Source: Chiridota heheva (lineage: Eukaryota; Echinodermata; Holothuroidea; Apodida; Chiridotidae). From it: DNA of 64,000 bases. The first letter of the stretch is position 1. Every line of letters begins with the position of its first letter. A model generated the notes under the pieces. The model was given only the letters and a program-made list of their open reading frames with translations, was not told the origin of the DNA and did no database searches. This document shows, in pieces, positions 18,101-30,100 of this stretch. Position numbers and translations under genes: made by a program. Where the stretch lies: contig JAIGNY010004474.1 in the NCBI GenBank assembly GCA_020152595.1, positions 141,501 through 205,500 of the forward strand, given 5' to 3'.

Positions 18101-21100
18101 ATTGTATTTATATTGATATTGAGATAATTGTAGTTTCTAAATGGGAGGGGAGGGGGGGGGGGGCTCTGAGTGTTTATTGGGTTAAAGGCTTCTAAGGGTT
18201 AAGGCCTAAAGTGTGTGTGTGTAGGGGGCTCTGAGTGTTTATTGGGTTAAAAGTGTTATCATATTCATCAAATCTTCATGTTAACTCTACTGCAGATTGA
18301 CTCTCTTTCCTTCTTATAGCAAATGAAGACTGGAGTGGCACAGTTAATAGCAAGTACAATGGGTTTAGAATTACCCTTTAGACCACTTTTCAACTTACTC
18401 ATCAATTCTGTCTGGACGACCCCATGTATCCCCATCGATTCCACCATGACCTGTGTGTATGAAACTGTTCCTCATTGGCTGACTGATGTCTGTGCGACCT
18501 AAGCTGCCCGTCAATGAAGAGACAACTTTCCTTGGGAACTGACCAATCTTTCCTGTGCGACGATTCTGTCCTTTCCACCAAGCATGGTCCGGACTGTAAC
18601 AAAAGAATAATGGAACAAACTTAACTCTCATTTCAATTTTGGTAGTTTGGCTGAACAGAATTAAATAATGTGGGTAGGGGTAGGGGCTGTACCAGGGTTA
18701 AAAAATACTCGCCTGCTTGCCGTAGACAAGTGAAAACAAATTATGGCGAGTAGAAATTTTATAACATATTAAGCCATGGTGAGTGTAACTTGTTTTGATG
18801 TTCATAACAACTTTGTTTCATTTCAGGTAACATACTTACAATACTGTCTTGTGTTTTTTCACTACTAAAAATGTCCCTTGTCCTCCACACACACAAAACA
18901 AGTGGTATTTCCATTATTAAATCCAAAATATATATCAATATTTGGTCGTTAACCATCAACTTTAATTGTCAATATACTGCCTAGTATGTGTATAGTCATA
19001 TATACTGTTTATATCTAGTGAACCGCTAGTGCCTTCTTTGTTTTATCCTGCATGTGCAATCTCTTGCTATGTTATTACGTACGTACGGCCATGACGTCAG
19101 GCCCAGAAGAAGGGCAATACAGAGGCAGACTACTAACACAAAAATGGTCAAATTTCACTTAAAAGGGTTGGCAAGGAGTTGAAAAAACTTGGCGAGTAAA
19201 AATACTGGTTTCCAAGTTGTATAAATGGCTGGTGAGTGACTTTTTGTTGCATTTTTTCAACCCTGAGCTGCACTATTTAAATGAAGAATCTTTTATACTT
19301 CTACAAACCATAAACTACTTCTGACTTGCTTTGCCATGAAATTCAGCAAAATGTAAAATTCCAACCTTACCTTCCTTCTATTACTGTGATGACGTCACCT
19401 TCATGGAGATCAAGTTTGTCGCCCTCTACTTCGAATTTCACTTGCTGAGCTACTCGCATTTCAAGAGGATGAAGCTGAAATTGCACAGAATAAGAAAATA
19501 ATTTTAATGTATTTTTGTTCTTATGTCCCATCCACACACTAAAAACCATTGATGAACACAGCTGTGAGCTTTGGCATTGTTTATGGCAATTCAACTCTCC
19601 AACCACAGCCATCTTCATCATAGCAACATGGTAATCATAGCAACGCGGTAATCATAGCAACGCAGTAATCATAGCAGCGGGTAACTACATTCTTGGACAA
19701 AATTATTGTCTCACTTTTCCCCCTTTCACCACATTTCAATGCTGCTTGAACTGAAAGCATCCTGGAATGGTCGTCTTCAACTCCATCATTGAGGTTGGGT
19801 AAAAGGCACTAAAAAAAAGGTGACAACTAATTTTGTCCAAGATGGTTTGAGTGTATGTTTTTGACTGGAAATAAATAAAAGATAGTCTAGTGTCAAATTG
19901 TATGTATTCTATTGCTTTATTTTAAATGAACAGAAGAATATAAAACATATTAAATTGAGTAGAAGAAGTTACAACGAACTATATTCTCTGCATCTTTGTA
20001 AAGTCGCCAGGGTACATGGGTGAGAGGAGGTGGACTATGAAGGGTCAAAGATATTTATTCAGTAAGTGGTATTTTATTTCTCATGGCTCCGAACATGTCA
20101 AGCATGTGACGGGGGGGGGGGGGGATGGACTATGAAGGGTCAAAGATATATATTTAGTGGGTGGTATTTTATTTCTCGTGGCTCGAAACCGTCAAGCATG
20201 TGAAAACAGGGGATTGTAGCAAACATGCCACAGCACAAAAAACATTGTGGTCGTGGATAATGGCTTATAGTTATAGATCTTCCAGAAGAATTTTAACATT
20301 TTTCTTAATTATTCCAGGGATCTGTGTGTAAATGACATTTTTCAATAACATATACTGTCATTGCAAACAATTTAGAATGCACCTCTCAATATGAAATACA
20401 CGTTTAAGATTATGAAAAAGCTGTACAACAAGCAGTCTATGCAAAAATATGTTTCAGGTCACGGTCAGCCAGAAAAAACAATTAAAAGACTACGTGATAT
20501 CAACTTTTAAAAATATATGTGGATCACCAGTCATGGTGCGAAGAGTACACATTATATCTGTAAATAAAATTGGGACATAATTAAAAATCACATCGTATAA
20601 ACCTGAAACCGTCAAATGTGAAGCGCAGATAATATTGTCAAAGCGTGGTACATGTCATTGTATTTTGGTAGTATACCCATAAATCTAACGTGATGGCTTT
20701 ATATTACGCCTAACCATCAACAGCTTACATTCATCTCTCCTATGTAGTATTGTTGGGACTGACCCCCTCCCCCCCTCCTAATTTTCAATCACCATCCACA
20801 CCTTCCCACCCCACTTTTCAATCACCATCCACACCTTCCCACCCCACTTTTCAATCACCATTCACACCTTCCCACCCCACTTTTCAATCACCATTCACAC
20901 CTTCCCACCCCACTTTTCAATCACCATTCACACCTTCCCACCCCACTTTCAATCACCATCCACACCTTCCCACCCCACTTTTCAATCACCATCCACACCT
21001 TCCCACCCCACGTTTCAATCACCATCCACACCTTCCCACTCCACTTTTCAATCACCATCCACCTTCCCACCCCACTTTTCAATCACCATCCACACCTTCC

Positions 21101-27100: not shown

Positions 27101-30100
27101 CCCCACTTTTCAATCACCATTCACACCTTCCCACCCCACTTTTTCAATCACCATTCACCTTCACCACTTTTCAATCACCATTCCCACCCACTTTTCAATC
27201 ACCATTCACACCCACCATTCCACCATTCACACTTCCCACCCTTTTCAATCACCCATCCACACCTTCCCACCAACTTTTCAATCACCACCTTCCCACCCAC
27301 TTTTCAATCACCATTCACACCTTCCCACCAATCACCATTCAATCACCATTCAATCACCTTCCCACCCCACTTTTTTTCAATCACCATTCACACCTTCCCA
27401 CCCCAACTTTTCAATCACCATTCCACTCCCACCCCACTTTTCAATCACCATTCACACCTTCCCACCCCACTTTTCAATCACCATTCACACCTTCCCACCC
27501 ACTTTTCAATCACCATTCACACCTTCCCACCCCACTTTTCAATCACCATTCACACCTTCCCACCCCACTTTTCAATCACCATTCACACCTTCCCACCCCA
27601 CTTTTTTTCAATCACCATTCACACCTTCCCACCCCACTTTTCAATCACCATTCACACCTTCCCACCCCACTTTTCAATCACCATTCACACCTTCCCACCC
27701 CACTTTTCAATCACCATTCACACCTTCCCACCCCACTTTTCTTTTCAATCACTTTTCATTCACACCTTCCCACCCCACTTTTCAATCACCATTCACACCT
27801 TCCCACCTTCCCCCACTTTTCAATCACCATTCACACCTTCCCACCCCACTTTTCAATCACCATTCACACCTTCCCACCCCACTTTTCAATCTCCATTCAC
27901 ACCTTCCCACCCCACTTTTCAATCACCATTTTCAATCTCCATTCACACCTTCCCACCCAACTTTTCAATCTCCATTCACACCTTCCCACCCCACTTTTCA
28001 ATCACCATCCACACCTTCCCACCCCACTTTTCAATCACCATTCACACCTTCCCACCCAACTTTTCAATCTCCATTCACACCTTCCCACCCCACTTTTCAA
28101 TCTCCATGCACACCTCCCTTTGGAAACCAAATGCACTGACAAGAAACTCATAACAAATGAGTGAATATAAATACACTTTCTTCCAGGGTAACAAATATTC
28201 ACCAAAATATAATTCAATAATTTAAATGATATCAAAAGTGAATATATGCAATGTTAATAATACCAGTTCATATTATTTCGACACTTTTTATCTTTATATT
28301 TTTCAGAAATTAAATCAAGAGAGGTACTTATACAAAAACATAAAAATTAACTCAATCATTCAACAACTACATTCCTGGAATACAAGATTCATAATTTTAA
28401 TTTAACGCTAAAACTTAAACCCTTCCATTCTGTGTTATTTTATCCATCAGATATACCTGTGATAATCCCATGAAGTCAGACAATCTTGGACAAAATTTTG
28501 TTGCAAGTTTTTGTCCAAGATTTTAGGTGGGGCAAACAAACCTGGAATCTGCAATCATGCATGACCAATGCACAGACACAGATATTCACGTGGCCTATCG
28601 CAAGCTTTTATATTTTAGTCTATAACACAACATTGAACACAAATATCTTATTTAATTTCTTTCTCTGTATCATCAGGTTTCATTATTATTTTTCGATATA
28701 TTTGATCTTGCTTAGATAATATGAGATCTTAAAATGTTTTGGCATAATGTGAGGTGCAAATAATCATCCAGTTGGAGGTGACACCAGTGTAATATGTCAC
28801 TAACAGGGCTTCTGTGTTCTTTCTTCCATACCAGAAAAACATGCCACACCACTAATATTGTAAGTCAACTTGAAGATACTCTTGCCAATGATAAAGTCAA
28901 AATGTTACATGAGACTTACAGTTGTGAAGTCCTCCATGAGGGATGTAAACGTTGGTCTGTCTTTGGGTTTGGCCTCCCAGCAGCGCATCATGATGCGGTA
29001 CACGCCCGTTGGACAGTCCTCTGGTTTGGACAATCTCTCTCCTTCTTTATCAATCTTCTGCAAGATCTGAGAATGACAAGAAACATTTCAGACATGTTTA
29101 TTTTGTATGATAACAAACCCAAACTACTGTGATATCTTGATATTGCATTTATAACAGTAAGATAGACTCTGGTGTAGAAAGTTTGCTGTAGAAGAGTAAA
29201 AAGTGGTTACAGGAGGAGGGGGAGGTTCCCATATGAGAGGTATGTATATATGTACAAGTGCCTTTTATCATCATTTTAGTAACGCAGGTGTTTTTTGCAT
29301 CAGCCATTTTCTCTGTTAATTACATACAGCTGGTCCATTTTACAATACTTCCATACTACAATACTGTAGGTATCAAAATTGACTTCTTTCATACTGCGGG
29401 TATCAAAATGATAGAATTCCATACTGCAAGGCGGGTATGGTTTTCGGTTGAGAGCCACACACTCCTACCATTTTAGTATGAAGTGCCCACCCTCCCCTCC
29501 CCCCCCCCTCCTCCCACTCTCGCTCACACCCTCACTTTTCTGACAATTGTGCTGACCGTTAATTTACCTTTTTTAACTAATGGAAAATAGTTTTCTATAT
29601 TTCCCCTGGTAGTACATTAGTCCCTTTGATAGATTCTTGTTTTAGTACTATCCTGACATATCCAGGAAGTGTAATCGTCACAAAATGTTTACAAAAATAA
29701 AATTAACAAATCTAAATAAAATGCATACATACTTTTCAGGAATGTGAAGATGTAATGTCACAACTAGTCTGAATCCAGTCGTTTTTAAACAATTCATATC
29801 AAACTTCAAACGCGATATCTCATCAATGGTATAAGATTTCTGCACCCTTTCTTGATCTCATGATCAAGCCAATGATTTAAAGATATTGAAATTGAATGTT
29901 GCTACTAGTCTAATTTCAGTCACTTTTACAAAATCTGACACAACTTGAAATTGTATTCTTTAAAAAAAAGTTTTAAAGGAATAATTTAGAGTTAATAAAA
30001 CTTTTGAATAAATCATTCTCCATTTTGTTCCTTCTAATGTCGTCTTTCATAACATGCTTGGCCACTGCACTAATCCTTTAACGTTCCTAATAATCCAATC

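Follow-up and report, generated by a model that had tools for sequence, protein, structure and literature searches.

Minisatellites born within transposable elements are already known. According to excerpts of PMC3389668, 23% of human minisatellites and satellites have such an origin, and LTR12 contains hotspots of it. Excerpts of PMC6947457 describe births in elements that include Alu, B1 and MaLR, by slippage between short repeats on either side, the mouse Ms6-hm in a MaLR element being one of the listed cases. Here, we analysed a 64,000-nucleotide stretch of the genome of the holothuroid Chiridota heheva (GenBank assembly GCA_020152595.1, contig JAIGNY010004474.1, positions 141,501 to 205,500, forward strand; hereafter the window, whose own numbering is used throughout). 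It carries a 33-bp minisatellite, almost without G on the plus strand, in a putative intron of an ACK1/TNK2-type kinase gene. This array would very probably have been born inside a dispersed, transposon-like repeat and expanded from one founder unit without G, with no need for selection or strand-specific repair.

The array resembles the minisatellites described in PMC6947457 and PMC3389668, since it comes from a single-copy segment of a dispersed repeat and ends in an incomplete unit. It differs from them by the unassigned class of the repeat, by its length of 7.3 kb and by the presence, in two other copies of the repeat, of arrays with different units at or beside the same C-rich tract. Like the human G-rich minisatellite CEB1, it is strand-asymmetric, with one G-rich strand, but a perfect array of its unit gives no canonical three-quartet motif. 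Finally, the amphioxus "mirage" minisatellites are also found in the intron region of animal genes, but, according to excerpts of PMC3087553, they span exon-intron boundaries, whereas our array stays at least 800 bp away from any exon and derives from a dispersed repeat. Its length and a possible recurrent birth site make this array remarkable.

Extent and base composition of the array

Tandem Repeats Finder (TRF) reported a single array at positions 20782-28115, with a period of 33 bp, 220.7 copies and the consensus TTTTCAATCACCATTCACACCTTCCCACCCCAC on the plus strand (GTGGGGTGGGAAGGTGTGAATGGTGATTGAAAA on the minus strand), which corresponds to a minisatellite, i.e. many head-to-tail units of about 10-100 bp. 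The last of these approximately 221 units is partial (28094-28115, 22 out of 33 bp) and is joined directly to the flanking sequence on the right. From 20778 to 28115 (7,338 bases), the plus strand contains 3508 C, 2032 T, 1796 A and only 2 G, located at 21012 and 28108. The longest run without G is thus 7,095 bp (21013-28107); the second longest in the window, of 250 bp, is made of 20 flanking bases and the first 230 bases of the array, and the next one measures 64 bp. The GC skew is -1.00 in each 500-bp interval listed from 21250 to 27999. The G-poor composition of the array is therefore real and extreme, and the description given by a previous sequence-only reading (about 220 units of 33 bp, virtually without G) is confirmed by TRF, the base counts and the unit table. 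The same reading placed GGGG and GGG in each unit; the adjacent GGGG and GGG of CCCACCCC are present in the consensus and kept in 156 of the 226 segmented units, and the statement fails for the remainder.

Three plus-strand open frames of 2,458-2,479 codons cross the array; a coding role was rejected, these frames being a by-product of the absence of both G and TAA. No Rfam match was found in the window at gathering thresholds, nor any match to mitochondrial COX1 in the assembly. No second allele of the intron was seen in this one assembly, all flank matches of more than 200 bp elsewhere showing at most 83% identity.

A single-copy segment of a dispersed repeat

A whole-genome DNA search revealed that the sequences on either side of the array belong to one dispersed repeat, with a left arm at 19685-20781 (plus strand, also delimited by arm alignments) and a right arm at 28116-28505 (plus strand). 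Other contigs contain many sequences that match the left arm (about 69-83% alike over at least 200 bp), several of these matches reaching as far as the array border, where they end with a C-rich tract (20762-20781 on the plus strand of the window, adjoining the founder unit). We then compared the gap between the two arms, measured from match ends, in the other copies of the repeat (named here by our own C and L labels). The 14 rows of this comparison represent 13 distinct loci, L036 and L050 being the same place. In 12 of these 13 loci with both arms found, only 34-181 bp separate the arms.

A homologue of the unit is found exactly once, between the C-rich tract and the right arm, in C1562, C3102, C1190 and C1327. 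It is also single in C29, where it is altered and shortened, and in C781, where it follows some degenerate duplication. C1795 and C2067 have an altered homologue next to the left arm, the right arm going unrecognised in both, and the other loci of the comparison carry a different short C-rich sequence at the place of the unit. Since the homologue of the unit is single-copy in other copies of the repeat, the array itself appears to have grown in place from one such piece of this repeat. Six relatives (C1562, C3102, C1190, C1327, C781 and C29) were aligned to the unit with MAFFT. In four of them (C3102, C1190, C1327 and C781), the part matching CCTTCCCACCCC contains one G (e.g. CCTTCCCGCCCC in C1190), while C1562 and C29 have none in this part. 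In the MAFFT alignment, the G of the relatives stands one column off the A of the array, but gapping one extra base of the relatives brings the two face to face. The founder thus probably underwent a G-to-A change, although these alignments do not settle the point.

Concerning the repeat itself, six loci (L038, L043, L046, L053, L056 and L059) have all or most of its left end (query 87-246) a second time, immediately behind the right arm. This arrangement looks like terminal direct repeats of about 160 bp, the second copy not being seen in the window.

Origin of the absence of G

Units were aligned to the consensus by wrap-around alignment. The 115 indel-free units (3,784 bases) display 48 changes at three segregating sites (T15C, 22; C31A, 14; A10T, 12) and only 7 further substitutions, 2 of them to G, all located in four units near the two ends of the array. 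Applied to the 3,550 bases of the indel-bearing units, this rate predicts 1.9 G; none was seen, with a probability of 0.15 by chance. The sequence-only reading had taken the skew to suggest selection, or a bias of repair or replication in the growth of the array. This claim is not upheld: the unit is single-copy in the sister repeats, and a founder without G together with 7 substitutions in 3,784 bases suffices. The array would lack G because it was copied from one G-free founder, with too few substitutions since then to erode this composition. Selection for a G-free strand was therefore rejected as unnecessary.

The array, its intron, the two arms, the single-copy homologues and the arrays that two other copies carry at this site or beside it are direct observations. 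From these, the following course of events can be proposed. The dispersed repeat would lie in the kinase intron and, at its C-rich tract, one segment of about 33 bp, by chance free of G, would have been duplicated, the first duplication probably resulting from slippage at this tract. Ordinary minisatellite turnover would then have brought the array to about 220 copies, the missing G reflecting inheritance from the founder and too little time for substitutions. The orientation giving a G-rich RNA would follow from the chance orientation of the repeat within this gene, and the array may well have no function in the kinase gene.

Other arrays at or beside the same site

The place homologous to the proposed birth site was read in the window, in 17 of 18 loci (L037-L053, including the altered C3323) and in C1190, C1327 and C1511, which makes 21 copies in all. 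The eighteenth locus, C3653 (L054), was excluded from this count as it stops short of the site. Three of the 21 copies (the window, C146 and C1511) have an array at or beside the C-rich tract, the arrays of the two others starting beside the tract or having their unit boundary in it. In C146 (L039, 3195-4111), about 917 bp of ragged units are organised around TTCCCCGTCACACC; this array, in which G is present, opens with TTTTCAATCACCATTCACACCTT directly after the tract. In C1511 (L063, 172-901), 11.8 units of 59 bp derive from the segment just before the tract and end in it, the fetched stretch ending inside the array. In addition, C781 has a few degenerate copies at the site. That two other copies have grown different minisatellites at or beside the same C-rich tract suggests a portable site of minisatellite birth, which is new here. 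Arrays are also found elsewhere in the repeat, each in a single copy: in the right arm of C996 and in the left arm of C3595. The C-rich tract would therefore be at most a favoured site. The array of C996 (L043, 1834-2055) is composed of 6.3 units of 35 bp.

Several observations nevertheless weigh against the proposed birth of the array at the C-rich tract of a transposon-like repeat. C1511 was fetched for its repeated-looking hits, and the window copy is the finding itself; leaving out both, a fair count gives one clear array among 19 copies. In C3323, the exception among the 13 loci with both arms, the right arm starts only 170 bases in. The repeat is dispersed over many contigs but can only be called transposon-like, and the likeness of its copies (about 70-80%) gives no more than a relative age. 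The molecular traces of slippage are also mixed. In the slipped-strand model of Taylor and Breden, as described in excerpts of PMC3389668, an incomplete terminal unit is a key feature, and its presence here speaks for such a birth; the partial last unit is however 33% short, outside the 10% rule used in PMC3389668. Direct repeats of 5-10 bp flanking the founder are likewise described for a slipped-strand birth (Taylor and Breden; Haber and Louis) in excerpts of PMC3389668 and PMC6947457. Such repeats are weak here: in two of the six relatives the shared word exceeds in length those of most shuffles (15 out of 300 shuffles each), and in the four others it does not.

Host gene, intron and transcribed strand

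The minus strand is predicted to encode an ACK1/TNK2-type kinase, the exon ends and splice signals being read by eye from the sequence. Four segments matching the kinase domain PF07714 fall at descending coordinates, i.e. in minus-strand order: positions 78-146 in an open stretch with the HRDLAARN motif (48389-48715), 140-168 in an open stretch with the DFG motif (43172-43279; E = 0.006, alone below the curated cut-off), 166-213 in the open stretch 33019-33201, and 211-257 in a putative exon with the end of the domain (28920-29066, within the open stretch 28911-29087). On the other side of the array, a putative exon at 19371-19474 would begin an SH3 domain (weak Pfam match alone, E = 0.018, whose frame and place fit), which would end in the exon 18399-18593 together with a CRIB motif (GTPase_binding PF09027, E = 6.7e-15; ACK1 chains 1cf4 and 4hzs). 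Farther along the minus strand, the open stretch 713-3223 would have an ACK1-like UBA domain near its end. The intron bearing the array (19475-28919, 9,445 bp, phase 0) thus separates the exon that ends the kinase domain from the first SH3 exon, with a GTAAGT donor at 28919 and an AG acceptor at 19476-19475. The array (7,334 bp) occupies 78% of it. No literature on TNK2 with a minisatellite and an intron was found among open-licence papers.

With these exons on both sides, the site in a TNK2 kinase intron transcribed from the minus strand, as put forward in the sequence-only reading, is well supported. As the array lies in an intron of a minus-strand gene, its pre-mRNA would be G-rich and C-free and its template C-rich, as also claimed; the count per strand gives 48% G with practically no C across the 7.3 kb. 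The non-template strand has a GC skew of 1.00 over the same 7.3 kb, as expected of R-loop-prone sequences, so that the geometry predicted to favour R-loops is genuine. For quadruplexes, a prediction was run on the minus strand and compared with 50 mononucleotide shuffles. Canonical G3+N1-7 motifs are much rarer than in the shuffles (2 vs. 23.9), and a perfect array of the unit contains none, so that it is no canonical G-quadruplex array. Two-quartet G2+N1-7 motifs are more numerous (197 vs. 150.8), those with loops of 1-4 less so (61 vs. 96.9), and long-loop G3 motifs (N1-30) are close to the shuffles (96 vs. 89.3). The mean G4Hunter score is 1.10, and 4% of the 25-nt intervals reach at least 1.5. 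The depletion therefore affects the strongest quadruplex class, and a modest enrichment is seen only for weak two-quartet motifs with longer loops. From the earlier proposal of a geometry favouring both R-loops and quadruplexes, the skew and the orientation stand, and the support for the quadruplex part is weak and mixed.

Other skewed repeats of the window allow a comparison of orientations. On the pre-mRNA strand, the skew is -0.85 at 33810-35786, -0.77 at 58589-59812 and -0.92 at 15197-15246 (a two-copy repeat), against +0.48 at 38775-39287 and +0.57 at 43415-43642. As these arrays point both ways, an orientation giving a G-rich RNA is no rule for skewed arrays. The repeat at 33810-35786 is a 31-bp array in another intron of the same kinase gene, with a C-rich pre-mRNA.

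The window contains further arrays. A 24-bp minisatellite at 45588-46188 has a single A in 601 bases, with an A-free run of 445 bp (45580-46024), and is thus also without one base on one strand. At 36577-37074, a 21-bp array has long plus-strand open frames (repeats such as RQACQVV and RHARWSA), which look like a by-product of the repeat and not a gene.

Alternative explanations

The interior of the array is ragged: 111 of the 226 units carry indels, with 252 indel events (306 bases deleted and 193 inserted) vs. 43 substitutions outside the three segregating sites in all units. We slightly favour the explanation that the inner array is largely an assembly or consensus artefact of a real and more regular array, the inner units having been garbled by indel errors of reads that the assembly was unable to place, and its unit number and truncations then being unreliable; this explanation is compatible with the birth of the array in the repeat. 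Indels indeed spare the edges, with 2 of 24 edge units vs. 109 of 202 inner units affected (Fisher test, P = 1.5e-5, for edge cut-offs picked after viewing the units; two other cut-offs give P = 7e-5 and 2e-4), and this contrast makes the fine structure of the interior untrustworthy. Moreover, the 57 units with at least 4 indel bases show 54 forms, only 2 of them shared, while the three substitution variants are each common to 12-22 indel-free units, which says that the indels postdate the expansion or are not real. The many unit truncations noted earlier are thus present in the assembly, but consist mostly of unshared interior indels that may be assembly errors. Other strongly skewed arrays of the assembly are likewise indel-rich: among 47 arrays from the window and the fetched loci, the median is 43 indels per kb in 21 arrays with an absolute skew of at least 0.9 (window array included) vs. 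2.7 in 16 arrays below 0.6. However, 20 of these 21 arrays come from loci chosen for their likeness to the window array, and the correlation loses significance across the 17 arrays that were not picked in this way (P = 0.21). Strand-specific miscalling of telomere repeats in nanopore reads is reported in excerpts of PMC9414165, a platform that may differ from that of this assembly. Other features of the indels fit an artefact less well. None of the 193 inserted letters is a G. Out of 45 lengthened units, 28 result from one insertion, which in 17 cases duplicates adjacent bases, and 36 of the 66 shortened units result from one deletion, with a leaning to microhomology (1.75 vs. 1.10; 5 out of 2000 permutations). 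A clean block also exists inside the array (22749-23111). Copying of adjacent bases and microhomology could be explained either by slippage or by consensus error in low-complexity DNA.

Another explanation, in line with the sequence-only reading, gives the skew a role: transcription would produce long R-loops and structures in the G-rich RNA that are important to the gene or drive the growth of the array, and the skew would have been kept for that reason. The 48% G of the RNA and non-template strand over 7.3 kb, the excess of two-quartet motifs and the higher indel load of skewed arrays compared with balanced ones (in a mostly non-random sample) are in favour of such a role. We consider it quite unlikely, however, as the founder explains the composition, canonical quadruplex motifs are depleted, and skewed arrays of opposite orientation are found in the same window. 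Only marginally less unlikely is a joint reading, in which the C-rich tract would repeatedly start strand-asymmetric minisatellites wherever the repeat lands, co-transcriptional R-loops then driving multi-kb growth and a load of small indels where a transcribed intron gives a G-rich RNA. Finally, the array could be a copy of a scattered satellite family instead of being born at this locus. Its sequence has 39 weaker matches on 21 other contigs (these match counts being lower bounds, as the search skips very common words), but they are only 66-77% alike, while all 29 matches of at least 84% sit in the array of the window. Regions were fetched for 20 of these 21 contigs; the arrays found there have other units and no arm of the element beside them. 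The idea that these other G-poor arrays (L009-L028) share the element was rejected, no arm being found in 20 out of 20 regions, the one match of L010 being sequence beyond the right end of the element, about 1.7 kb from the L010 array. A satellite family is thus highly improbable, and local expansion of a founder unit within the dispersed repeat remains our preferred explanation.

Significance

As the unit is single in the sister copies of the repeat, the whole 7-kb skew would trace to one G-free founder, and a visible origin would thus replace the appeal to selection. The array also offers, through its length (7.3 kb), its skew of 1.0 and its intragenic position, an extreme natural substrate for R-loop and splicing assays. 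Finally, the different arrays found at, or next to, a single spot of this repeat family may provide a natural series on how minisatellites start.

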